Below are positions 2,371 through 16,148 of a DNA stretch of 22,510 nucleotides, in pieces. Numbering within the stretch: position 1 is the first letter of the stretch; the number at the start of each line of letters is the position of its first letter. The DNA comes from a virus, in IMG/VR virus record IMGVR_UViG_3300046318_000013, positions 1-22,510 of that record. One strand, given 5' to 3'. Below the pieces are notes generated by a model. The model made no database searches. It was not told the DNA's origin and saw only the letters and a list, made by a program, of their open reading frames with translations. The translations under genes and the position numbers were made by a program.

Positions 2371-3771
2371 ATGGCAATTCTTGACATTTTCAAGCGGAAA
2401 AACACTCAGTCTGAGAGCAATACTTTGTTCGGTCAGACTGCTCTTGGCAACAACATTGTTTACCAAGGCAGTGATAAACGTGCCGGTGTCAATACTCAAA
2501 TCCTCTATGTAACCACTGCAAGCACTACAACTGCTGGTCGCCCGGTGGATATGTCTGTGCTGACTCGAAACAGCACAATCATGTCTTGTGTCGGGGTAAA
2601 AGCCCGGGCTTTGGCCCAATTGCCGATCAAGATTTGTTGTGAAACAGCAGACGGTAAAAGTGTTGATGCAGTTAAAGGTGAAGGCGTTGGGACGCGAGAT
2701 AAAGCCAAGGCTCGTCAAGTTGCAAAGTTGCTGAGTAGTCCTAATAACTTCCAGAGCAAATATGAGTTCTGGTATCAATGGTTGATGTGGTACGAGTTGT
2801 CTGGTGAAGCCTTTACTCTGTGGTGGAGGAAAGACCAGAATAGTTCTACCGAGACTCCATTGGAAATGTATGTGCTGGATTCAACGCTGATTGCGGTGAA
2901 TATCACGCCTACTCGCTATCCGACTTTCCGACTGTCTACCCCGAGCTATGGTTTCAACAAAGACCATGAATTCAAGTATTTCCAAGTCATGCACAGCAAA
3001 GAAATGGCGTGGCAAGGTTCTGCTGGTTTCAACAAAGCAATTTTGGCAACTGAATTGGTTGGTCTTGACCAAGACATTGATTTGTATGCCAACTTTGTCA
3101 TGCAAAACGGCGCGAAGCCTTCTGGCATGTTTGTGACCGATCAAGTGATCCCTGATGGCAAGTACAAAGAGATTGCAGCCCGTCTGAAAGAAGCATGGAA
3201 CAATATGACTGGCAGTAAAGCCAGCGACCCAAGCAAGCCGGGTCAAGGCATGTTGTTGGATCAGGGCATGAAGTATCAACGTGTGGAAATGTTGACGCTG
3301 CAAGACGCTGACGCTGCTGCTTTGAAGTTGCAGACAATGCGCCGCATCTGTGGGTTGTTTGGTGTGCCGCCTTCCATGATCGGCATCCATGACGGTAAAT
3401 TCAACAACAGCCAAACAGCTTTGGATGAGTTCTACAAAACCACTATGTATCCAACAATCGTCAATATTCAGCAGAAATTGACACAGCATTTGTTGGATGG
3501 TTATCCTTCTTTGTCCGTTGAGTTTGATACCAAGGATTTCTTGAAGGGTGCTCCTTTGGACCAGATGAATTTTGCTACAGCTGGCGTTTCTGGCGGCATT
3601 ATGACTCCCAACGAAGCCCGGAATTACATGAATCTGCCTTCTGTAGAAGGTGGGGATGAATTGGTGAAAGATACAAAGCCTGCTGATCCTGTTCCCGGCT
3701 CTAGCGCCCAAGATACTGGCGGTGGTGGTGGGAATCAGACTCGGAAAATGAACATCGGTTCCAAGACTTGA
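2371..3771 (+). CDS. HK97-family phage portal protein
   Basis: This 466-residue protein is the portal, the dodecameric ring at the capsid vertex through which DNA enters and leaves. The length and the order after the large terminase and before the prohead protease fit the HK97 portal family. The family pattern is visible in the N-terminal segment (MSVLTRNSTIMSCVGVKARA), in the middle (WYELSGEAFTLWW) and in RRICGLFGVPPSMIG with a following NNSQTALDEFY segment, the part that in portals leads into the long helical crown region. The start has a good purine-rich site, GAGGGG, about 6 nt upstream. The C-terminus ends in a Gly-rich tail with five consecutive glycines, probably disordered. Confidence 0.95.
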   Translation: MAILDIFKRKNTQSESNTLFGQTALGNNIVYQGSDKRAGVNTQILYVTTASTTTAGRPVDMSVLTRNSTIMSCVGVKARALAQLPIKICCETADGKSVDAVKGEGVGTRDKAKARQVAKLLSSPNNFQSKYEFWYQWLMWYELSGEAFTLWWRKDQNSSTETPLEMYVLDSTLIAVNITPTRYPTFRLSTPSYGFNKDHEFKYFQVMHSKEMAWQGSAGFNKAILATELVGLDQDIDLYANFVMQNGAKPSGMFVTDQVIPDGKYKEIAARLKEAWNNMTGSKASDPSKPGQGMLLDQGMKYQRVEMLTLQDADAAALKLQTMRRICGLFGVPPSMIGIHDGKFNNSQTALDEFYKTTMYPTIVNIQQKLTQHLLDGYPSLSVEFDTKDFLKGAPLDQMNFATAGVSGGIMTPNEARNYMNLPSVEGGDELVKDTKPADPVPGSSAQDTGGGGGNQTRKMNIGSKT

Positions 3772-3777
3772 TTAAAA

Positions 3778-3993
3778 ATGCATACTGATACACAATATCT
3801 GTTAGCATTAGCGAAACAGGTCAAACGACCTACAAAAAAGTTGCCTGTATTATTAGGGCAACCCCCTAAAATACAGGACAACAACCAATCCATTGCTTTA
3901 GGGGCAATCAATGAAGACATTGAATCTAATCTGCGAAGCCAAACTGAACTTGAGCGAGAAAGCCGAGAGCGGCGAACCGTCTGGACAGATTGA
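3778..3993 (+). CDS. Possible small leader ORF, unrecognised
   Basis: A 71-codon frame starts 7 nt after the portal stop and runs 83 nt into the prohead protease gene in another frame. I recognise no domain. The first part is basic (KRPTKKLP) and the later part is rich in charged residues. The start lacks a convincing ribosome binding site, and the overlapping half could be a by-product of protease coding. It matters because a translating ribosome would cross the hairpin at 3844-3877 and pass through the protease start, so it could act as a leader peptide. It may equally be chance. Confidence 0.22.
   Translation: MHTDTQYLLALAKQVKRPTKKLPVLLGQPPKIQDNNQSIALGAINEDIESNLRSQTELERESRERRTVWTD
3844..3904 (+). 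promoter_or_regulatory. Two mutually exclusive RNA structures over the protease ribosome binding site
   Basis: A 14-bp hairpin with one bulged A is formed by arms 3844-3858 and 3864-3877 around a 5-nt loop. The segment CCCCTAAA at 3863-3870, mostly in the 3' arm, is also perfectly complementary over 8 bp to TTTAGGGG at 3897-3904, the Shine-Dalgarno region of the prohead protease (ATG at 3911). The two pairings cannot coexist: one sequesters the ribosome site, the other leaves it free. No T-run follows the hairpin, so it is not a standard rho-independent terminator. The complementarities are read directly from the sequence; the switching role is inference. Confidence 0.45.
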
Positions 3994-4711
3994 AGCTCGT
4001 ATTACAACTTGGGGCGCTCGTGAAGGCGCTGATGGTCGTAAGTTTTTCTACAAGCCTGAAGGATTTATGCAGTGGGCCAAAGAGTTCGCTGCATCAGGCC
4101 GACCACTCCCAATGTACGTTAATCACAATGCTGATGCTATTCCTGTTGGGGAATGGACAAGCATTGAAATGGATGACGATGGGATGAATGCTTGTGGCCG
4201 TCTATATTTGAACACCACAACTGGTTCTGATCTGTATCAAGTGATGAAAGAATCTCCCAATATGTTTGGCGGGGTTTCTGTTGGCGCATATGCAGAAGAA
4301 TATCAGTGGGTTAAAGAAGATGGCGAACCAATGACCATTGGTTCTGATGACCCATATGAATCTGGTTATTTCCAAATCACCAAAGGTGGTCTGCGTGAAA
4401 CCAGCGTGGTAATGCATCCAAATAACATGAAAGCAGAAATCAAAAAGTTGGAATATTTCCGACCTGATGGTTCTGCTGATTTGAAAGTATTGGAAGAAGC
4501 CCTGCGGGATGCAGGTCTGTCCAAGCAGATGTCGGTTGCCGCCGCATCTGTATTCAAGTCGGTGATTGAGCAGCGTGATGCTGCAAAAGAGCCTATTGAA
4601 ACTGCGCCAATTCAGAGTGATTCTGATGCGGAGGCAACCGAAGCGGAAATTCTCGCGGCTCTTGAGCAACGTGAACTTCTTAAACTCCTAGACAAACGCT
4701 TGAAAGGCTAA
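3911..4711 (+). CDS. Prohead (HK97-type, S78) maturation protease
   Basis: This 266-residue protein is the probable head maturation protease, which is packaged in the prohead and trims the capsid N-terminus and itself. Family features are a His in PMYVNHNADAIPVGEW (H72), a GGVSVGAYAE segment at about 120-129, and a Ser in LRETSVVMHPNNM (S165); H72 and S165 are the likely catalytic pair. After about residue 185 comes a charged, helical C-terminal region that probably acts as the scaffold-interacting or self-cleaved part. The start at 3911 has the site AGGGG 6 nt upstream, which can be masked by the upstream RNA pairing. The capsid gene follows after 2 nt. Confidence 0.9.
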   Translation: MKTLNLICEAKLNLSEKAESGEPSGQIEARITTWGAREGADGRKFFYKPEGFMQWAKEFAASGRPLPMYVNHNADAIPVGEWTSIEMDDDGMNACGRLYLNTTTGSDLYQVMKESPNMFGGVSVGAYAEEYQWVKEDGEPMTIGSDDPYESGYFQITKGGLRETSVVMHPNNMKAEIKKLEYFRPDGSADLKVLEEALRDAGLSKQMSVAAASVFKSVIEQRDAAKEPIETAPIQSDSDAEATEAEILAALEQRELLKLLDKRLKG

Positions 4712-4713
4712 TC

Positions 4714-6063
4714 ATGTCTAAAGAAATCATCGAAAAACTGGATGCCATTGAAGCAAAGCAAGTTGAAGCTGTTGCTGCTGTGGAAGCCAAAATCCCCGCT
4801 GCTGTTGAAGCTGTTAAGGCTGAGATGGATGAAAAAGTTGCTGCTCTGGAAGCCAAAGTTGCTTCTATTCAGATGCCTGAGTTCATTCGCGCTCCTGCAA
4901 AGACTGTTCGCCAAGATGTGAACCGTGCTGTGCGTGAGCAACTGAGCAACTTCTACAAAGGCAACAACCGTTTGGAAAAAGAACTGCAAATTTTTGCAGA
5001 CGAAAGCCAGATGGACGCATACCTGAAAGAAGCCTCGGCTCTGACTGGTGGCGGTGATGGCAAAGGCGGTCGTACTGCTTACGATCCAACCTTTACTGCT
5101 CTGCGTTTGATGAACCCAATGCGTGGCCTGTCCCGCACTGTGGCAACTGATGGCTCGTCTTATCAGTTCCGAGTTCGCACGGGCAACCCCGGTGAACAAT
5201 GGGGCTATTCGATCCAGAACAACGGCACTCCAACCACTGAAGATACCAGCATCTGGCAATTGGTTCTGCAAGACCTGAACGTGCAGTTCCCAATCCGTAC
5301 CGCTGCTTTGGACGACATTGATGGTTTGGAAGCTGTGGTTGTTGATGACATGCTGGCCTCGTTTGCACAAAGCGAAGCTCTGTCGATGATCCAAAACAAC
5401 GACCAAGCTGCTCAGTCCGGTACTAACCCTTACGGTGGTACTAACGGTCTGCGTGGTCTGGACCAGTATGCTGGCTCTAACGCCACTTACACTGGTGGTA
5501 CATCGTCTGCTGCTGCTTTCGGCACTTCCGGTACTGGTTCTACAAGCGGCCTGCACTCGCTGGCTACTTATGACCAGATCACCACCAACGCCAACACTGT
5601 GGGTGCTAACAACATCCAATACAAAGACGTTATCAACACGATCTACGCTTTGCCACAACAGTATTGGACATCGAACGCCAAGTTCATGGTCAGCCCTATC
5701 TTGGCTCAAGCCATCCGTGGTCTGCAAGACACCAATGGCCGTCCAATCTTCAACTCTGTTGAGTCGTTGAATCCCGATGGCATCATTGGTCAATTGCTCG
5801 GCTTTGATGTGGTGATGAACAAGTATCTGGACAACCCAAGTCAAGGCACTACTGGTACTGCTGGCACTAACAGCCTGTACCCAATGTACTTTGGTGACTG
5901 GAGCCGTGGTCACACGATCATTGATCGTCTGAATATGGTCATGCGCCGTTACGACCAGACATTGCCCGGTTACATCACCTTCTTCGGTGAAAAGCGTCTG
6001 GCAACATCTGTGCGTGATCCAAACGCACTGGTTCGCTACCGTAGCACCGGGACAGCAACGTAA
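4714..6063 (+). CDS. Major capsid protein 1, HK97 fold, with N-terminal scaffold-like region
   Basis: This 449-residue protein is the main shell subunit. Residues 1 to about 55 are Ala/Glu/Lys/Val rich with coiled-coil spacing, like the HK97 delta domain, which acts as internal scaffold and is removed by the protease. The region homologous to the second capsid protein starts at LKEASALTGGG (residue 104). Downstream come TSIWQLVLQDL, an FPIRTAALDDIDGL segment, the E-loop and A-domain region, and an ending with GEKRLATSVRDPNALVRY. It follows the protease directly with a moderate site (AAAGG), and a terminator-like hairpin starts 6 nt after its stop. The codon usage looks refined, as expected for a highly expressed gene, which also explains a long antisense open frame over it. 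Confidence 0.94.
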   Translation: MSKEIIEKLDAIEAKQVEAVAAVEAKIPAAVEAVKAEMDEKVAALEAKVASIQMPEFIRAPAKTVRQDVNRAVREQLSNFYKGNNRLEKELQIFADESQMDAYLKEASALTGGGDGKGGRTAYDPTFTALRLMNPMRGLSRTVATDGSSYQFRVRTGNPGEQWGYSIQNNGTPTTEDTSIWQLVLQDLNVQFPIRTAALDDIDGLEAVVVDDMLASFAQSEALSMIQNNDQAAQSGTNPYGGTNGLRGLDQYAGSNATYTGGTSSAAAFGTSGTGSTSGLHSLATYDQITTNANTVGANNIQYKDVINTIYALPQQYWTSNAKFMVSPILAQAIRGLQDTNGRPIFNSVESLNPDGIIGQLLGFDVVMNKYLDNPSQGTTGTAGTNSLYPMYFGDWSRGHTIIDRLNMVMRRYDQTLPGYITFFGEKRLATSVRDPNALVRYRSTGTAT

Positions 6064-6069
6064 AGTTGG

Positions 6070-6098
6070 AAAGGGGGAGCTTGCCTCCCCCTTTTGTT
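6070..6098 (+). terminator. Rho-independent terminator-like hairpin after capsid gene 1
   Basis: A perfect 10-bp stem pairs AAAGGGGGAG (6070-6079) with CTCCCCCTTT (6085-6094) around the 5-nt loop CTTGC, followed by TGTT. The GC-rich core, A-tract and T-tract give a bidirectional-looking intrinsic terminator. It sits 6 nt after the capsid stop and runs almost up to the ATG of the homing endonuclease, taking the place where that gene's ribosome binding site should be. It probably limits read-through downstream and stabilises the capsid mRNA 3' end. Confidence 0.8.
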
Positions 6099-6698
6099 AT
6101 GTTTTACACATACATTCATTTCAAAGCCGATACGCATGAGCCTTTTTATATAGGAAAGGGTCAAGGAAATCGGCATCTTGTAAAGACAAAGCGAAACAAC
6201 TATTGGAACAATGTTGTTAGCAAACATGGCTTTACTTCTGAAATAATTTGTAAATGGAAAACAGAGCATGAGGCTTTAGAGCATGAAAAACTTTTGATTC
6301 AATGCTTTAAAGATATTGGCGCTGATTTGGTTAATTTGACTGATGGTGGCGAGGGAACTTCTGGATGGATTCCTTCTGCTTCTTGGAGGGCAAAAAAAAG
6401 TGCTTCACAAAAAGCCAATTTTGTAAATCCAATGTTCAACCAAACATCTGCTGAAAAAAGAAAAAACACAATAACAGGCCGGACTTTATCTGAGTCACAT
6501 AAAGCAAACATTGGGTTGGCGTCTGTTGGAAATAAAAGTCGCTTAGGCTTTAAAAACACAATAGAATCAAACCTGAAAAGATCGGATAAATTGCGCGGAA
6601 ACAAGCATTGTCTTGGGATTGTGCAAAAACCAGAAGCTAATAAAAAAAGATCAGAATCTTTGAAAGCGTATTTGGCGCTTAAGAAGTCATCAATTTAG
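6099..6698 (+). CDS. Free-standing GIY-YIG homing endonuclease with NUMOD3-like repeat
   Basis: This 199-residue protein resembles phage GIY-YIG homing endonucleases (SegA-like). It shows the GIY-equivalent YTYIH at residues 3-7, the FYIGKG block at 16-21, the expected basic residue R25, an Asn in LVNLTDGGEGTSG (N79), and Glu residues around 61-63 for metal binding. The second half has NUMOD3-like DNA-binding segments (GRTLSESHKANIGLASVGNK at 127-146, then GFKNTIES and a Lys-rich end). ATG 6099 was chosen because the domain begins there; the in-frame TTG at 6066 would translate through the terminator. No ribosome site is visible. The gene is visibly more A-rich than its neighbours, which suits a mobile origin. 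It lies between two capsid paralogues, and the start of the next gene uses its stop region. Confidence 0.9.
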   Translation: MFYTYIHFKADTHEPFYIGKGQGNRHLVKTKRNNYWNNVVSKHGFTSEIICKWKTEHEALEHEKLLIQCFKDIGADLVNLTDGGEGTSGWIPSASWRAKKSASQKANFVNPMFNQTSAEKRKNTITGRTLSESHKANIGLASVGNKSRLGFKNTIESNLKRSDKLRGNKHCLGIVQKPEANKKRSESLKAYLALKKSSI

Positions 6699-6706
6699 GA
6701 ACTGTT

Positions 6707-7750
6707 ATGACCATTACCGAACGCATCCTGTCTGGAATTAAGCAAACATTGGAAACTGGCGATCAGGTCAAAATTGACTTGCGCGAGGCATCTGCCATCA
6801 CTGGTTCAGGACTGAATGTCGGTGGTCGCACAAACTTTGATGACGCATTCGCTGCTTTGCGTTATGCAAACCCGTTTCGTCAAGGCGCACGAAATATCAA
6901 AGTGCCCGGAAATTCCGCTGTTCAGTTTGTTGCCAAAACTGGTAACGCTGCTAACAGCACAAACCCTTGGGGCTACACAGTCAGCCCCAACACTGGTTCC
7001 CCAAACATTAACACCAGCATTTGGCAATTGCCGACTCGCGTGATTTCCGCGCAACTGCCTGTTCGCTCGGCTGTGTTGTCTGATGTGAATGGTTTGCAGT
7101 CTGAATTGGTCGAAGACCTGATGATGGAATTCGCTCAAATTGAAGGCGCATCTTGTGGCCTGAATAACGATCAATCAGGCACTACTACTACATCTACTGG
7201 TGGTACTGACGGCCTGCGCGGATTGAACAGCTATCCCGGCGCTGCTGGTGCTGCTGCTGCCTTTGGTACAAGTGGCACAGCTATCACAAACGGTTTGCAT
7301 ACTCTGGCTACTGTTGGATATAACAACACTGGTGGCCTTGAGGCTGAAACTTTGTCTGCTATGGCAGATGCTTTGCCAGCGCAATATTGGTCTTTGCCGG
7401 GTACTGCTTGGATGATGCATCCATCTGCAATCCGAACCTTGCGTAACTATGCTCATGGTGGCGGTGGTTATTCGTTCATCGACATTGGTTCTGGTGAAGC
7501 TGGCTCATTGCTGCATGTGTATGGTTTCCCTGTCATTCCAAACCCATATTTGGACGCTACTGGCACTATTGGCTGCAAGTCAATTTATCTTGCAAACTGG
7601 CCTCGTTTTATGACGATTGCTGATGTGGAAGAAATGACTGTTCAGGCAATGGAACAAACCACTCCCGGTTTTGTGAATTTGTATGCTGAAAAGCGTATGG
7701 CAAGCTCTGTGCGTGACGTTTTTGCTGGTGTTCGTTCAATCGAGACTTAA
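6707..7750 (+). CDS. Second HK97-fold capsid protein, lacking the scaffold-like N-terminus
   Basis: This 347-residue protein is clearly paralogous to capsid protein 1. Shared blocks include LREASAITGSG (from residue 25), GGRTNFDDAF, NTSIWQLP, LPVRSAVLSDVNGLQ, a TDGLRGLNSY segment, AAAFGTSGTAITNGLHTLAT, LPAQYWS and AEKRMASSVRD near the end. It has only about 24 residues before the shared region, against about 103 in capsid protein 1, so the coiled-coil delta-like region is missing. Its ribosome site, TTAGGA, overlaps the endonuclease stop codon, 6 nt before ATG. The whole fold is intact with no stop or frameshift, so it looks functional. It could be a vertex or minor shell protein, or a replacement subunit. 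Which of these is unknown. Confidence 0.88.
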   Translation: MTITERILSGIKQTLETGDQVKIDLREASAITGSGLNVGGRTNFDDAFAALRYANPFRQGARNIKVPGNSAVQFVAKTGNAANSTNPWGYTVSPNTGSPNINTSIWQLPTRVISAQLPVRSAVLSDVNGLQSELVEDLMMEFAQIEGASCGLNNDQSGTTTTSTGGTDGLRGLNSYPGAAGAAAAFGTSGTAITNGLHTLATVGYNNTGGLEAETLSAMADALPAQYWSLPGTAWMMHPSAIRTLRNYAHGGGGYSFIDIGSGEAGSLLHVYGFPVIPNPYLDATGTIGCKSIYLANWPRFMTIADVEEMTVQAMEQTTPGFVNLYAEKRMASSVRDVFAGVRSIET

Positions 7751-7752
7751 AC

Positions 7753-8424
7753 ATGAGTTTTGATAACTATCAATACGCTGCGCCTTTCGGGGCGCAAACA
7801 CGCAATCCATTCAACTATGCAAAGGTTGAACAGATTGGGCGCGATAGTGTCACTGCGTGGTTGACTCTTGAGGAAATCACCAATCAACTGAACTTATTTC
7901 AGGACGAGAGCCAAGATACATACCTGCTTGGCCTTGAAATCGCCACCAGACAGGCGATTGAGGATTACTTGGGGATGTCTATCCTCCCGGTAACTTATCG
8001 CGTCTGGTACGGTTCTGAAAGCCTTGTGGCATCACCAATCAGTCTTGATCTGCCTGAAGTCAGTCAAAACTTGTATCCAAGCCAACCCGGAGTAACAATC
8101 AACTCTGTTGGTTATTGGAATGATGCGTTTCCGCCTGTGTTCCAAACATTGGCAAGGACAAGCTATTACTATGATGCTTCTGGCAACAAAGTAATTGTCA
8201 ACAATTTGCCAACAGATGTAAATTCCGTGATGACTGCTCCAATCATCGTTGAATACACAACTGTTTCCAATCCATTGTCTACATATCCCGTGATTAAGCA
8301 GGCAGGATTGTTGTTGCTCACGCATCTGTACAACAACCGTGCAAATGCCACAGAGACAAAACTCAAAGACATTCCATTTGGCGTGACAACTTTGCTGAAA
8401 CCATACAAACCTTTGGTGATGTAA
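7753..8424 (+). CDS. Head-tail connector protein (HK97 gp6-like)
   Basis: This 223-residue protein probably forms the ring below the portal that begins the neck. The placing directly after the capsid genes and the typical pattern support this: an N-terminal helical stretch (LTLEEITNQLNLFQDESQDTYLLGL) followed by ATRQAIEDYLGMS, a central beta-rich insert, and the family-like ending with IPFGVTTLLKPYKPL. The gene starts 2 nt after the capsid 2 stop, so it is likely read on the same message. It is longer than minimal gp6 proteins because of the beta insert between about residues 75 and 165. Confidence 0.82.
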   Translation: MSFDNYQYAAPFGAQTRNPFNYAKVEQIGRDSVTAWLTLEEITNQLNLFQDESQDTYLLGLEIATRQAIEDYLGMSILPVTYRVWYGSESLVASPISLDLPEVSQNLYPSQPGVTINSVGYWNDAFPPVFQTLARTSYYYDASGNKVIVNNLPTDVNSVMTAPIIVEYTTVSNPLSTYPVIKQAGLLLLTHLYNNRANATETKLKDIPFGVTTLLKPYKPLVM

Positions 8425-9219: not shown

Positions 9220-9714
9220 ATGGCCCTCCCAAACAAAGTCTTGCCGGGTTTTAGTGCAGCCCTGTACTGTCAGCCCACTTCTTCGCCTACCCCTTTGACA
9301 ACTGCTCAATTGTCTTTGGTTGCAAGCGTTTCTCCAATCGCTATTTCTGGCAACTTGCTGCCAGTTGAAGCCGTGCCTGCTTTCGGCCAAGATGATGCTG
9401 TTGCGTCTTACTCGGTCGCTGGTTCGCGTCAGTCTGACAAGATTCCAGTTCAAGCTGCACCTACCAGCATGACTATCACTGCCGCTTGGAACCCCTCAGA
9501 TGCCAACTTGCTGTTGATGCGCGGCGATGCTGCTTCCGGCGTGGTGGATCGTACTTTTGTTGTGTCGGCCACTGAAGGCTCAAACATTGTGTACTACGCC
9601 TTCAACGGTCGCGTTGGTCAATTCCAAATTGATGCCGCCCCCGGCGCTGAAGCAAAATGCACGTTCACTGTTCACCCTCGTGGTAACCAGTTCGGCTGGT
9701 CCAACAACGCATAA
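9220..9714 (+). CDS. Major tail protein 1 (tail tube subunit)
   Basis: This 164-residue protein is one of two tandem tube-protein paralogues. The position between tail terminator and chaperones is that of lambda gpV. The core from LLPVEAVPAFGQDD to ITAAWNPSD is 49 residues with one difference from the second copy, and the C-terminal part ending in VHPRGNQFGWSN is nearly identical as well. The N-terminal 45 residues and the loop near 125 diverge. A good ribosome site (AAGGAA) lies 7 nt upstream. The fold is not clear from motifs alone and no Ig domain is visible at the C-terminus. The call is based on order and on duplication of an evidently structural protein. Confidence 0.78.
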   Translation: MALPNKVLPGFSAALYCQPTSSPTPLTTAQLSLVASVSPIAISGNLLPVEAVPAFGQDDAVASYSVAGSRQSDKIPVQAAPTSMTITAAWNPSDANLLLMRGDAASGVVDRTFVVSATEGSNIVYYAFNGRVGQFQIDAAPGAEAKCTFTVHPRGNQFGWSNNA

Positions 9715-9723
9715 GGAGTAATC

Positions 9724-10242
9724 ATGGCTGCACCTAATAAAGTTCTTCCCGGCTTTGCTGCATCGCTTTGGATGCAATCTGGCGCGACTCCTACGGCTTT
9801 CACAACGGCTAACCTGTCTGTGTGGACAGCTCAAGTTGCCACAATTGTTGGCACGGCTGCAAACGGCACTGGTACTGCTGGTGTTTTGTTGCCTGTGGAG
9901 GCTGTGCCTGCATTCGGTCAAGATGATGCTGTTGCCAGCTTCAGCGTGGCAGGTTCGCGTCAAAGCGACAAGATTCCCGTGCAGGCTGCTCCTACGAGCA
10001 TGACCATCACGGCTGCTTGGAATCCTTCTGATACCGCTCTGTTGCAAATTCGTTCTGATGCTGCTTCTGGTGTTGTTGACCGCACTTTCGTTGTGGCTGC
10101 TGTTGATGGCGCTACCACTGTCGCTTATGCTTTCAACGGTCGTGTGGGCCAGTTCCAGATTGACGCTGCGCCCGGTGCTGAAGCAAAATGCACATTTACT
10201 GTTCATCCACGAGGCAACCAGTACGGCTGGTCGAACACCTGA
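9724..10242 (+). CDS. Major tail protein 2 (paralogue of tail tube subunit)
   Basis: This 172-residue protein is a tandem paralogue of the preceding gene, 9 nt downstream, with a strong site AAGGAG. It keeps the same core and C-terminus but has an 8-residue-longer N-terminal region around residues 38-55 (a GTAANGTGTAG insert). In the 49-codon core, 25 codons differ synonymously and one amino acid differs (Tyr to Phe), so the copies have been separate for some time while the protein was conserved. Both probably enter the tube, or one forms a specialised ring. The stop overlaps the next ATG by one base. Confidence 0.78.
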   Translation: MAAPNKVLPGFAASLWMQSGATPTAFTTANLSVWTAQVATIVGTAANGTGTAGVLLPVEAVPAFGQDDAVASFSVAGSRQSDKIPVQAAPTSMTITAAWNPSDTALLQIRSDAASGVVDRTFVVAAVDGATTVAYAFNGRVGQFQIDAAPGAEAKCTFTVHPRGNQYGWSNT

Positions 10243-11467: not shown

Positions 11468-11983
11468 ATGGCTCAACATATCGACACGTTAGGTTTTGAG
11501 GGCAAGGACTTGAAGTTCCAGCTTTCTGGCTTTGCCGATTTTGAGCAACAAATCATGGCCTTGGCAAATGGTTTCAAGACAGATGTGGTCTTGAAAGAAA
11601 CGCTTGCCAAGGCCGCTGAGAAGTCTATGGAGAGCGTTTACTATGCTGCAATGGCATATGCCCCATATGACATTAAAAACCCTCGTAGCGAGTCTCGTCC
11701 AATCCACATGCGGGACACTCTCAAGCTCAAATCTCGCTTGACAACACCAAATGACAGGGATGCTCCAAGCATTGGTGAAAACTCTGTTGTTCTGGCGGTT
11801 GTGTCTGTCAAAAGAAGTGCGGTGTCTCTTGCTCAAGAATATGGCACATCAAGAATTCCTGCTCGACCATTTTTGCGTCCAGCACTTCAATATGGCGCTC
11901 AAACGGTCATTAATGATTTAAAGACCAATCTTGCTGAGATAATTCCAGCATACGCGCAAAAACTCGCCAGAAAGAGGAAGTAA
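11468..11983 (+). CDS. HK97 gp10-like / gpZ-like head-tail completion protein
   Basis: This 171-residue protein matches the HK97 gp10-like pattern: an N-terminal helix around residues 10-40, a middle with YYAAMAYAPYDIKNPRSES (the family's 'A.k.aP..tG.Lr.si' region), HMRDTLKLKSRL, and the hallmark end YGTSRIPARPFLRPAL followed by a C-terminal helix. Such proteins bind at the tail top or act in tail completion. It usually lies upstream of the tube gene, but here it is between the chaperones and the tape measure. Its stop shares one base with the next start (TAATG). Confidence 0.8.
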   Translation: MAQHIDTLGFEGKDLKFQLSGFADFEQQIMALANGFKTDVVLKETLAKAAEKSMESVYYAAMAYAPYDIKNPRSESRPIHMRDTLKLKSRLTTPNDRDAPSIGENSVVLAVVSVKRSAVSLAQEYGTSRIPARPFLRPALQYGAQTVINDLKTNLAEIIPAYAQKLARKRK

Positions 11984-14433
11984 TGGCTAATCATCAGAAT
12001 GCTGCAACTCTTGGTGTTGCCCTGAGTCTTGAGACTGGTAGCTTTGTTGCGGAAGCTCAAAAGGCAGCTTATGAAACTCAGAAGCTGAAAAACACGATTA
12101 CTCGTGAAATGAAAGCGGCTGACAAGGAAATTCAGGCGCTCAAATATGCAACCGAAGACTACGGCAAAGCCGTTACCAAAGTTGCTGAAATTGAGCGTCA
12201 ACTTGAATCTGGTCGCCTGAAAAATATCAAAGGAACAGACAAGGCTGCTGAACTTTTGGCGCAGGCCGCTGCCTATGACAAGATTGCCGCAAGTCAAAAG
12301 AAGATCACAGGCGAACTGACGCAACAGCAGAAGATGGCTCTGACTTATCAGACCACTGACTTGTTTACTCAAATTGCGTCTGGTCAGAGTCCGATGATTG
12401 CCATCATCCAGCAGGGCGGTCAATTGAAAGATGCGATGGGCGGCATCAAAGGCATGTTCACGGCAATTGGAACACTGCTGACGCCTTTCAATCTTGCTCT
12501 TGGTGGCACTGCTACAGTTCTTGGCTCTTTGGGTTTGGCGTTTTATCAAGGAAGTGAAGAAAGCAAGAAATTCCATAATTCATTGATTTTGACTGGTGGC
12601 TTTGCTGGCATCATTGAAGAACGATTCAATGGGTTGTCTCGCGTTATTAGTGACAAATTCAACATTGGAATTGGCGATGCTCGTGATGTTTTGCAGGGTC
12701 TTGTTTCATCTGGGAACTTTACCTACAAATCTTTGGATGCTGTTGCAGGTGTTGTTGCAAGAGTTGCTTCTTTGTCTGGCGATGGTGCTTCTGTTGTTGC
12801 GGAAAAACTTATTCCAGCATTGGATGGTTCTGCGTCTTCTGCAAAGAAACTGAATGATACATATCATTTTTTGACGCTGGAACAATACAAGAACATTGAA
12901 GCACTTAATCAGCAAGGCAAAACTCAAGAAGCAGTCAAACTTACTGCCGATCTTTTGACGGAATCTCTTGCTGGTCAAAGCGCAAAACTTGGCTATCTTG
13001 AAAAGATGTGGAAGGCCACAAAAATTGCGGCCAGCGATTTCTGGGATTGGATGAAAGAAATTGGGCGCGAAGAAGACCCTTCTATCGCGGCAATGAAAGA
13101 TCAAGCAAGGCTCATGGAGTCTTATGTTCGTCTTGGTGGTGAAGGAGCTATCAAGGGCGTTCGTTATCAGGCCGCGCTTTCAGAATACAAGCGGTTGGCT
13201 GAACTTATTGATCAACAAGAAAAAGAAGCCAAAGCAAAATCAGATAAAAAAGCAAAAGACGATCTTAAGATCACAGATTACAGCGCAACTGGTGGCGCTG
13301 ATAGAACTCGCCAGCTTGCAATGCAAGAAGCAAAAATTCGTCAGGATGCTTTTTATGAAGCGGCCAAAACAACGGCCACTGAAGAAGAACGAATCAGGCT
13401 TGAGGCAGAACAGAAGATCGCTGCAAAGAAGTTTGATTTTGATGCCATTAGTGCCCAAGAAAGACGAGCAAGAGGTGTTGAACTTGAGCGCGTTTTGAAT
13501 GCTGAGATTGAATCAATTCGTGCTGAACGTGATCGCAAGATTTCTGATGAGCGTTACAAGCAATATCGCAAAGAACTTGATCTTCAGATTGCAGCCATGC
13601 AACATGAAGAAGCATTTCAGGCAGAACGCGACAAAGCTCAAGATGCTTATGTTCAAAAGAATTGGCTTGCTTACAAATCTGTTGAGGAAATTCAAAAGGC
13701 TGAACGTGAAACTCTTAATTTCAAGATGGAAACATTTGGTTATACGCAACGAGAAATTGATTTGAAGAAAGTCGATATTCAACTTGAGCGCGAAAAAGCC
13801 ATGATCAAAGCAAATAGTGCAGGTCAAAAAGAATCTGATATTGCTGAAGCATATCGTTTGGCTGAAGCTACTGCTGCACAGAAGCGAGAAACAGTTGAGC
13901 TTGCTGATGTATATCGAAAAATTGATGTGACATTCCAATCTGTATGGGGCAATCTTTCTTCCGTAATTGACAACTTTGTCAAAACTGGAAAAGCAAATAT
14001 GAAAGAGTTTGCTCGTAGTGTTATTCAGGATTTGATTGCGATCCAAATGAAAGCTGCCGCCATGAAATTTCTTGGTGGCGCATTTGATATGTTTAAAGGT
14101 GGACTCGGTGGCGGTGGCGGCACTAGCATGAGTCAATTTGAATATGCAATGGTTAGTGGTTTTGCAGACGGCGGTGATCCTCCTGTAAATCAAGTTAGTG
14201 TTGTTGGTGAACGTGGTCCAGAATTGTTTATTCCTAAAACTGCTGGAACAATCATTCCAAACAATGCTTTGGGTAATTTGGGAGGAAATTCTGGTCCTGT
14301 ATTTAATGGTCCATACATTGCTAATATGAGTGCAATTGATACTCAGAGTGCAATGCAATTCTTGGCGAGAAACAAACAAGCAGTTTGGTCCGCTAATCAA
14401 TCCGCACAGCGGTCAATGCCAGTGAGTCGATAA
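11983..14433 (+). CDS. Tail tape measure protein (lambda gpH-like)
   Basis: This 816-residue protein sets tail length and is ejected with DNA. It has an N-terminal helical part and the motif DLFTQIASGQSPMIAIIQQG (about residues 126-145), as in lambda gpH-type proteins. Hydrophobic Gly-rich stretches follow at about 150-190 (GTLLTPFNLALGGTATVLGS). A long charged helical region spans about 390-640. The lambda-type C-terminal domain (VWGNLSSVIDNFVKTGKANM, then EFARSVIQDLIAIQMKAAAM) lies at about 650-700, and a Gly-rich segment with SVVGERGPELFIPKTAG follows. At about 1.5 angstrom per residue, a tail near 120 nm is expected. It is the longest tail gene before the hub. Confidence 0.93.
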   Translation: MANHQNAATLGVALSLETGSFVAEAQKAAYETQKLKNTITREMKAADKEIQALKYATEDYGKAVTKVAEIERQLESGRLKNIKGTDKAAELLAQAAAYDKIAASQKKITGELTQQQKMALTYQTTDLFTQIASGQSPMIAIIQQGGQLKDAMGGIKGMFTAIGTLLTPFNLALGGTATVLGSLGLAFYQGSEESKKFHNSLILTGGFAGIIEERFNGLSRVISDKFNIGIGDARDVLQGLVSSGNFTYKSLDAVAGVVARVASLSGDGASVVAEKLIPALDGSASSAKKLNDTYHFLTLEQYKNIEALNQQGKTQEAVKLTADLLTESLAGQSAKLGYLEKMWKATKIAASDFWDWMKEIGREEDPSIAAMKDQARLMESYVRLGGEGAIKGVRYQAALSEYKRLAELIDQQEKEAKAKSDKKAKDDLKITDYSATGGADRTRQLAMQEAKIRQDAFYEAAKTTATEEERIRLEAEQKIAAKKFDFDAISAQERRARGVELERVLNAEIESIRAERDRKISDERYKQYRKELDLQIAAMQHEEAFQAERDKAQDAYVQKNWLAYKSVEEIQKAERETLNFKMETFGYTQREIDLKKVDIQLEREKAMIKANSAGQKESDIAEAYRLAEATAAQKRETVELADVYRKIDVTFQSVWGNLSSVIDNFVKTGKANMKEFARSVIQDLIAIQMKAAAMKFLGGAFDMFKGGLGGGGGTSMSQFEYAMVSGFADGGDPPVNQVSVVGERGPELFIPKTAGTIIPNNALGNLGGNSGPVFNGPYIANMSAIDTQSAMQFLARNKQAVWSANQSAQRSMPVSR

Positions 14434-15115: not shown

Positions 15116-15705
15116 ATGTTATTACACCTGTTGACGGAACAAACAATATTCGTATTGCTGATTTTGTCCGCATCAATACTGGCGCACAGGTGTATAGGTT
15201 TTGTACCGCGCCTTCTAATATTACTGTCCCGGCAGTTGATGCTATTGCATTTGATGCAGTGGGTGCGTTGATGAAAGTTGGTGATGTTCAGCGAGACATT
15301 AAAAGTACGGGCAACGATACATCAGTTTCTTTGACCGGCATTGATACATCGGTTCTTGGATTTGTTTTAAGTAACACGGTCAAAGGCTCATATATCCAAC
15401 TTTGGCATGGATTTTTTGATACAGATGGCGCACTTATTACGACAGGTGGCACTGGTGGCTTGTATCAATTCTTTAGTGGATATGTTACATCATTCAGCAT
15501 TCAAGAAAACTGGATGGAGGAAGCTCGTACTTTTGTTGGCACAGTTCAGATTGGCGCGTCAAGTACGCAAATGACTTTGCAAAATACCACTTCTGGCCGA
15601 TACACAAATGATGATAGTTGGCAGTTTTTTAATAATGGTGATTCAAGCATGAACCGAGTCAGTTTTATTGAAACAATTGCCTACCAATTTGGGAAACGCG
15701 AATGA
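15112..15705 (+). CDS. Tail-tip protein, DUF2163-like
   Basis: This 197-residue protein is likely part of the tail tip. It shows a pattern known from DUF2163-like phage proteins: VYRFCTAPSNITV near residue 23, a DAVGALMKVGDVQRDIK block, TSVSLTGIDTSVLGFVLSN, and SYIQLWHGFFD at about 95-107 (the 'G..v.i..gf' strand). The C-terminus is a separate beta section (FSGYVTSFSIQENWMEEART). It overlaps the previous and the next gene by 4 nt each (ATGA). The match was recognised by eye and is moderate. Confidence 0.6.
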   Translation: MNVITPVDGTNNIRIADFVRINTGAQVYRFCTAPSNITVPAVDAIAFDAVGALMKVGDVQRDIKSTGNDTSVSLTGIDTSVLGFVLSNTVKGSYIQLWHGFFDTDGALITTGGTGGLYQFFSGYVTSFSIQENWMEEARTFVGTVQIGASSTQMTLQNTTSGRYTNDDSWQFFNNGDSSMNRVSFIETIAYQFGKRE

Positions 15706-16148
15706 TTCGCAAAGCAACTCGTTTTGACATTTCGAGCATCATGGATATGTTGCGTCGATATAGAAATGAAACGCCTTTAGATTTTTTGCGAGATGCCGAC
15801 GATGCCGAGTATGTTGGGAATATGCTGAATGAGCTTATTGCCGGGCGTGGAGTTGTGTTGATCGCCGAGATTGACGGGAAGGCCGCAGGGATGATGATTG
15901 CGGCAGTCATGCCAAGCATTTGGTCACCGAAGCATTTTGTGCTGACAGAGTTTGCTTATTGGGTTGAGCCGGAACACCGTGGCGGCACTGCCGGGTACAG
16001 GCTGTTGCGAGCATACTTGGATGAAGCAATTGCGCTGAAAGATGCTGGCCGAATTTGCAACGCCTTCATCAGCAAAATGGTGAATAGTCCTGACCTGAAG
16101 TACAGTAGGTTTGGGTTTTCAAAACTTGAAGAATTTTGGGTGATCTGA
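15702..16148 (+). CDS. GNAT-family acetyltransferase-like protein in the tail module
   Basis: This 148-residue protein looks like a GNAT N-acetyltransferase. It shows a starting strand (MIRKATRFDISSIMDMLRRY), a central strand AGMMIAAVM, and the acetyl-CoA-binding motif in FAYWVEPEHRGGTAGYRLL, with R93-G94-G95-T96-A97-G98 as the expected pyrophosphate-binding loop. It ends with KYSRFGFSKLEEFWVI, the typical GNAT C-terminal strand. The substrate is unknown. It lies between two tail-tip genes with a 4-nt overlap upstream and 1 nt spacing downstream, so it is expressed with the tail. It could modify a tail or host protein, a cell-surface sugar, or a small molecule. Nothing in the sequence decides. 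Confidence 0.83.
   Translation: MIRKATRFDISSIMDMLRRYRNETPLDFLRDADDAEYVGNMLNELIAGRGVVLIAEIDGKAAGMMIAAVMPSIWSPKHFVLTEFAYWVEPEHRGGTAGYRLLRAYLDEAIALKDAGRICNAFISKMVNSPDLKYSRFGFSKLEEFWVI

Follow-up and report, generated by a model that had tools for sequence, protein, structure and literature searches.

Two HK97-fold capsid genes share one head operon

The window analyzed here is a 22,510-nucleotide stretch of viral DNA (IMG/VR record IMGVR_UViG_3300046318_000013, positions 1 to 22,510), and the system in question is a pair of tandem capsid genes, capsid 1 and capsid 2. The head genes, all on the plus strand, follow the order of a standard head operon: the terminase large subunit (TerL; 667-2346; PHROG 9, E=1e-132; Pfam TerL_nuclease/TerL_ATPase), the portal protein (2371-3771; PF04860, E=7.8e-59), a prohead (head maturation) protease of the S78 type (3911-4711; PF04586, E=1e-7, with a matching PHROG head maturation protease), capsid 1, the 449-residue major capsid protein (4714-6063), a homing endonuclease (6099-6698), the 347-residue capsid 2 (6707-7750), and a head-tail connector/adaptor (7753-8424; PHROG 40 head-tail adaptor Ad1, E=2.5e-13). 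An intrinsic terminator (6069-6095) separates capsid 1 from everything downstream. Both translational features that the original prediction, made from the DNA letters alone, had ascribed to capsid 2 are in place: AGGAA, the likely ribosome-binding site (6697-6701), precedes the ATG and is kept in close relatives, and the connector ATG (7753) lies 2 nt past the capsid 2 stop codon (7750).

The two capsid proteins are paralogs. They are 39% identical over 355 residues (BLASTP, E=1e-60), their family profiles align with 100% probability (E=8e-77, capsid 1 residues 97-443), and both match Pfam PF05065 (Phage_capsid) above the curated cut-off (capsid 1, E=3.9e-31; capsid 2, E=1.2e-19). These results agree with the earlier description of two intact HK97-fold open reading frames (ORFs), and all the shared motif blocks that it had named are present. 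The best Foldseek match of both is the capsid of the Rhodobacter capsulatus gene transfer agent (RcGTA, 6tb9; E=2.3e-17 for capsid 1 and 1.3e-12 for capsid 2), with HK97 also matched, from AlphaFold2 monomer models of low confidence (mean pLDDT 59). At the sequence level, capsid 1 has a weak but detectable similarity to the RcGTA capsid (E=1.4e-8), whereas none was detected for capsid 2, for which the PDB sequence search returned no convincing solved homolog.

The main structural difference lies at the N-terminus. Capsid 1 begins with a delta/scaffold-type region (residues 1-103, 4714-5022) that includes a predicted helix (residues 3-51; AlphaFold2, block pLDDT 60-70 over residues 1-50), which is absent from capsid 2. 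Only ∼24 of these 103 residues have counterparts in capsid 2, as originally proposed, and ∼80 are missing. Capsid 1, with its long predicted helical N-terminal region and the S78-type protease encoded upstream, fits an HK97-type self-scaffolded capsid; capsid 2 alone lacks the long N-terminal region of such proteins. Capsid 2 does retain the N-arm, E-loop, spine-helix and P-domain blocks, and in 59 alignment columns the same residue is at least 90% conserved in both paralogs. Because all lattice elements of the HK97 fold are kept, the protein likely sits in the shell rather than decorating it. Relative to capsid 1, it carries three loop deletions in the A-domain. One relative (L021, 5769-6749) encodes a capsid 2 with an in-frame 21-residue deletion in the NNDQAG...LR region, which is either an unusual variant or an assembly error.

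The pair is conserved and under purifying selection

Viral contigs were searched with the capsid sequences. The scans returned 379 and 518 candidate relatives, of which the best 80 of each were kept; the survey thus covers the nearer part of the group and consists almost entirely of metagenomic contigs. Capsid 1 followed by capsid 2 was the constant order in all 112 distinct loci carrying both genes. Seven loci of the first set had a single gene, and in each the contig stopped within 187 bases of that gene. The second scan pair, seeded with the Methylophilaceae phage P19250A (KX815270), contributed another 69 distinct capsid 1 genes, each followed by capsid 2; the only two that lacked it were an outgroup record and a contig that stopped 87 bases further on. 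Among these small phages from lakes, the pair is therefore present in every one of the ∼181 distinct related loci with room for both genes, and no single-capsid member of the clade was found among the loci surveyed, the apparent ones all being contig ends. P19250A, a 38.6-kb siphovirus (PMC8163748), is the one isolate found with both genes, and its capsid 2 is annotated as "hypothetical". A possible second isolate, Venkman (L152, MT375522), is said to resemble P19250A in synteny (PMC8163748). It was rejected as a further case: a separate scaffold protein is annotated among its head genes, and neither capsid had a detectable relative there.

The usual spacing between the two genes is ∼56-64 nt. 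A search for the pair without the endonuclease, which the original prediction had suggested, found exactly this arrangement in all but three loci (the window, L017 and L046). The endonuclease is thus a rare insertion just 3' of the terminator, and with a presence in only 3 of ∼181 pairs it was discarded as the cause of the duplication. The ORF was recognized through PHROG 314 (homing endonuclease, E=4.6e-16). It had no counterpart among the Pfam models, and the GIY-YIG class first assigned to it was not confirmed. In Rhizobium phage RHph_X2_25, an annotated homing endonuclease (L149, 2225-3073) lies directly 3' of the capsid gene, in the same place as in the window.

By simple and rough Nei-Gojobori estimates, capsid 1 has a median pairwise dN/dS of 0.122 and capsid 2 one of 0.124, and the neighboring genes span a range that includes both. 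Together with the universal presence of the gene, this led us to reject capsid 2 as a decaying pseudogene; decay in relatives, which the original prediction had named as evidence against a role, was not seen, and purifying selection equals that on capsid 1. Capsid 2 sequences form one clade (support 100) on a long stem, and a capsid 1 clade is not rejected (approximately unbiased test, 0.63). The trees suggest a single old duplication of the major capsid gene. The similarity of capsid 1, and not of capsid 2, to the RcGTA capsid fits capsid 1 as the ancestral type. Gene conversion between the paralogs left no sign, the identity being 39.7% within genomes and 39.8% between them. The combination of universal pairing, a dN/dS equal to that of capsid 1, and intact HK97-fold elements strongly supports capsid 2 as a functional second capsid subunit.

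A terminator and codon usage point to a lower level of capsid 2

The terminator in the window consists of an 11-pair stem followed by a T tract (minimum free energy -18.2 kcal/mol, z -2.7). A GC-rich hairpin with a T tract was found 3' of capsid 1 in 79/79 distinct junctions (median -18.6 kcal/mol), compared with 5/79 after shuffling and with 3/74 to 31/87 at other operon junctions. The P19250A set added 68 of 69 distinct junctions, for a combined 147/148. The family contains 51 distinct hairpin sequences. In the closest group, one stem pair is changed from C-G to G-C in 11 sequences with pairing kept, and five of eight pairs are invariant there. The stretch from capsid 1 to capsid 2 in the window showed no promoter-like site; capsid 2 and everything behind it thus probably depend on readthrough.

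Codon bias is stronger in capsid 1 than in capsid 2 in 90 of 93 genomes. The rare-codon fraction is lowest in capsid 1 (0.062) and rises through the tail tube (0.105), capsid 2 (0.135), the protease (0.166), the portal (0.189) and the connector (0.222) to TerL (0.260). Judged from sequence, the rank of capsid 2 is what would be expected of a protein at some tens of copies per virion. The terminator and the codon adaptation both point to less capsid 2 than capsid 1, so that capsid 2 has the appearance of a minor structural protein.

Capsid 2 is exchanged as a cassette

Comparison of related genomes revealed a feature that is new here: capsid 2 is exchanged as a cassette between near-identical phages. 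The between-genome identity of capsid 1 tracks that of portal, protease and connector (r 0.83-0.84), whereas that of capsid 2 does so much less (r 0.46). The clearest case is the pair L020/L111, in which capsid 1 is 99.8%, the connector 100% and the 8770-type gene (g8770) 100% identical, but capsid 2 only 65%. At the DNA level, the two agree at 95-100% up to and including the terminator and over the initial ∼100 nt of capsid 2; identity then falls mostly to 38-77% and returns to ∼97-100% within the connector. Across L020/L111 and a second pair, L027/L080, identity drops from ∼1.0 to 0.4-0.8 over the mature part of capsid 2 and is ∼1.0 again at the connector start. In L020/L111, the breakpoints fall after codon ∼34, just past the EASAITGSG motif, and at the stop codon. 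In window coordinates, these alignments delimit a constant 5' part of ∼34 codons (6707-6808; the short N-terminus plus LREASAITGSG), common to the two commonest allele classes, and an exchangeable mature part (6809-7750). By comparison with HK97, the 5' breakpoint would lie just past the predicted maturation cleavage site.

On a tree of capsid 1 plus connector built for 67 phages, 18 switches of capsid 2 allele class are counted, although 6 would be enough. Even if only branches with good support are considered, each of the two commonest classes requires no fewer than 11 changes. Among pairs of phages with capsid 1 at least 95% identical, 34% have a capsid 2 at or below 75% identity. By the same measure, portal, protease and g8770 each give 0%, the connector gives 1.5% and the 8425 gene 13%; TerL reaches 17.5%, from a small sample (40). 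Between the two main alleles, identity is lowest in the A-domain (0.54), intermediate in the E-loop (0.81) and highest in the N-terminus (residues 1-24, 0.86), with domain borders that are approximate, drawn by HK97 analogy from predicted secondary structure. Assembly chimeras are an unlikely source of the swaps, as contig after contig would have to carry a double join placed exactly around the same gene.

Mosaicism extends to the distal tail region. L020 and L111 differ in a second strongly diverged block, ∼4.7-7.1 kb behind capsid 1, whose equivalent in the window leads into the tape-measure gene (11983-14433).

Capsid 2 as a proposed minor lattice subunit, possibly the penton protein

The original prediction had offered a vertex or minor subunit as one role for capsid 2. 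Its minor-subunit part gains support from the terminator between the genes and from codon adaptation, while the vertex is the best fit to the N-terminal lengths and to an argument from homo-oligomer contacts. We therefore favor a functional but minor role for capsid 2 in the lattice, most likely that of the penton (vertex) protein, and place middling confidence in this assignment as a whole, its vertex location being deduced from the genes. Capsid 2 would have arisen long ago, when the major capsid gene was duplicated in the ancestor shared by the phage group. Capsid 1, with its ∼103-residue scaffold-type region, would be produced in bulk ahead of the terminator, and capsid 2, with an N-terminus of ∼26 residues, at a lower level through readthrough. 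Capsid 2 may also rely on capsid 1 for scaffolding, as originally proposed. Capsid 2 would then join the prohead formed by capsid 1, portal and protease, and both capsid proteins would probably be trimmed at their shared EAS-TGxG region, the predicted cleavage site. In the virion, capsid 2 would build the 11 non-portal pentons and capsid 1 the hexons, as gp24 and gp23 do in T4. If the shell is T=7, as is usual for HK97-like phages of this genome size, the pentons would take 55 copies of capsid 2 versus 360 of capsid 1.

Two observations favor the penton over other lattice positions. The asymmetry of a long and a short N-terminal region is T4-like, and the exchange pattern, with the A-domain differing most and the N-terminus and E-loop least, fits a pentamer whose subunits contact each other. 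Since the subunit contacts of a homopentamer are all encoded in one gene, phages could trade whole mature domains of capsid 2, provided that the surfaces touching capsid 1 are preserved. A bolder version holds that these ∼38-kb siphoviruses have a penton protein independent of T4 gp24, whose mature domain is traded as a cassette under diversifying selection (e.g., for escape from capsid-sensing hosts), with the hexon protein and all other head parts unchanged; we put this forward only tentatively.

Several points weigh against the penton reading. Neither virion proteomics nor a structure was found for any member of the group, the AlphaFold2 monomer models are of low confidence, and other small phages fill their pentons with a single capsid protein. 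To our knowledge, cassette swapping at 35% amino acid difference is not a property of any vertex protein. The terminator lowers all downstream genes and not capsid 2 alone. Furthermore, among single-capsid relatives, Pseudomonas phage PARCL1pr likewise carries a hairpin with a T tract behind its capsid gene, and a strong hairpin is present in SfII too; the terminator may thus be an old post-capsid element, with capsid 2 placed on its low side.

The alternative that fares best keeps capsid 2 in the lattice but away from the pentons, either mixed into hexons or forming a special ring by the portal vertex or connector. It shares with the penton reading the complete set of HK97-fold lattice elements and a codon adaptation fitting a minor structural protein, and the position of the gene, directly before the connector at 2 nt, would suit it. 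Mixing into hexons would, however, tie the capsid 2 A-domain to capsid 1, yet this domain shows the greatest divergence among swapped alleles against an unchanged capsid 1, and the three A-domain loop deletions suggest a different capsomer center. We regard this non-penton placement as a serious but minority possibility.

Alternatively, diversity itself could be the main selected property of capsid 2, with exposed or immune-sensed shell variants swapped to escape host defense and structural position secondary. The exchange between near-identical phages, the excess of allele changes on the tree, and the divergence of capsid 2 where portal, protease, connector and g8770 hardly vary are all in line with this idea. 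There is also a precedent in a capsid protein reported to activate a bacterial immune system directly (PMC9712102). On the other side, no host defense gene or escape mutant is known here, and the tail genes and the 8425 gene are mosaic as well, so the swapping could be general mosaicism that capsid 2 tolerates. As a primary explanation we consider selected diversity improbable, although it is compatible with a penton role rather than exclusive of it.

It is quite unlikely that capsid 2 forms a shell of another kind, be it a smaller particle or a compartment apart from the normal virion. Self-assembling encapsulin-like shells do without a scaffold-type region, as does capsid 2, which has the whole capsid fold and is served by a ribosome site of its own. 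The gene, however, is invariably found in the head operon with capsid 1 before it and the connector after it, no linked cargo gene was seen, and the protein shares with capsid 1 a maturation-site motif behind its short conserved N-terminus. Finally, the view that capsid 2 is a functionless leftover duplicate kept apart by the endonuclease, to which the missing scaffold-type region and the "hypothetical protein" label in P19250A might lend some color, has a negligible chance of being right given the dN/dS and the occurrence of capsid 2 in all distinct pairs, nearly all of which lack the endonuclease.

Other features of the window

Downstream of the head genes lies a second tandem duplication, two tail-tube-like genes (9220-9714 and 9724-10242) that are 74% identical. 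Two such copies occur in 89 of the 113 loci with a match. A GNAT-type acetyltransferase gene (15702-16148; PF00583, E=6.7e-8; PHROG 1249) lies among the tail genes, and short Gly/Pro-rich repeats towards the contig end (21536-22498) are possibly part of a collagen-like tail fiber.

Comparison with known systems

The closest functional parallel is T4, in which gp23 loses 65 N-terminal residues and gp24 only 10, and gp24 fills 11 vertices (PMC9958956). Both systems have a paralogous HK97-fold pair in which the major protein has a long and the minor protein a short N-terminal region. The pair described here differs in belonging to PF05065 (the HK97 gp5/GTA type), in its 39% identity versus ∼20% in T4, and in its genome of ∼38 kb versus ∼170 kb. 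Capsid 2 is also swapped as a cassette, and its vertex position is a predicted one. In the Pfam search only PF05065 matched at E≤0.001, and the PDB sequence profile search returned no T4 capsid chain. Capsid 2 would thus work like gp24 in the penton reading, yet is not a member of the gp24 family.

The nearest solved folds of both paralogs are those of HK97 gp5 and the RcGTA capsid (Rcc01687; 6tb9, 8fqk, 1ohg). In HK97, an N-terminal delta domain of ∼100 residues is removed by the linked protease. The difference is that a single capsid gene serves both hexons and pentons in these systems. Bacterial microcompartments use separate genes, BMC-H and BMC-P, for hexameric and pentameric tiles (PMC13185644); the likeness is one of principle only, as the folds are unrelated and share no ancestry. 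According to the same 2026 review, distinct penton and hexon genes are rare, and the case of T4 is linked to its large genome. The "vertex protein" band of phiCbK was considered and rejected as a parallel, being a processed form of the phiCbK major capsid protein (PMC3556154). No case of paralogous capsid pairs in small phages was found in the literature searched, which covered few subscription journals; the pairs described there were those of T4.

P19250A offers the nearest match to the window. It has the same gene order, its paralogs (4600-5988 and 6066-7124) are 60% and 55% identical to those of the window, and a hairpin with a T-rich stretch lies between them; it differs in lacking the endonuclease and in having one tail tube gene instead of two. 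If the penton reading is true, the conservation and selection of two capsid genes in freshwater phages with genomes of ∼38 kb would mean that even a small head can come to divide labor among its shell proteins. Swapping of the cassette amounts to a natural experiment in which many variants of the second subunit evolved against one constant major capsid protein, and the isolation of P19250A with a cultured host, Methylophilaceae strain IMCC19250, makes the question open to direct test.

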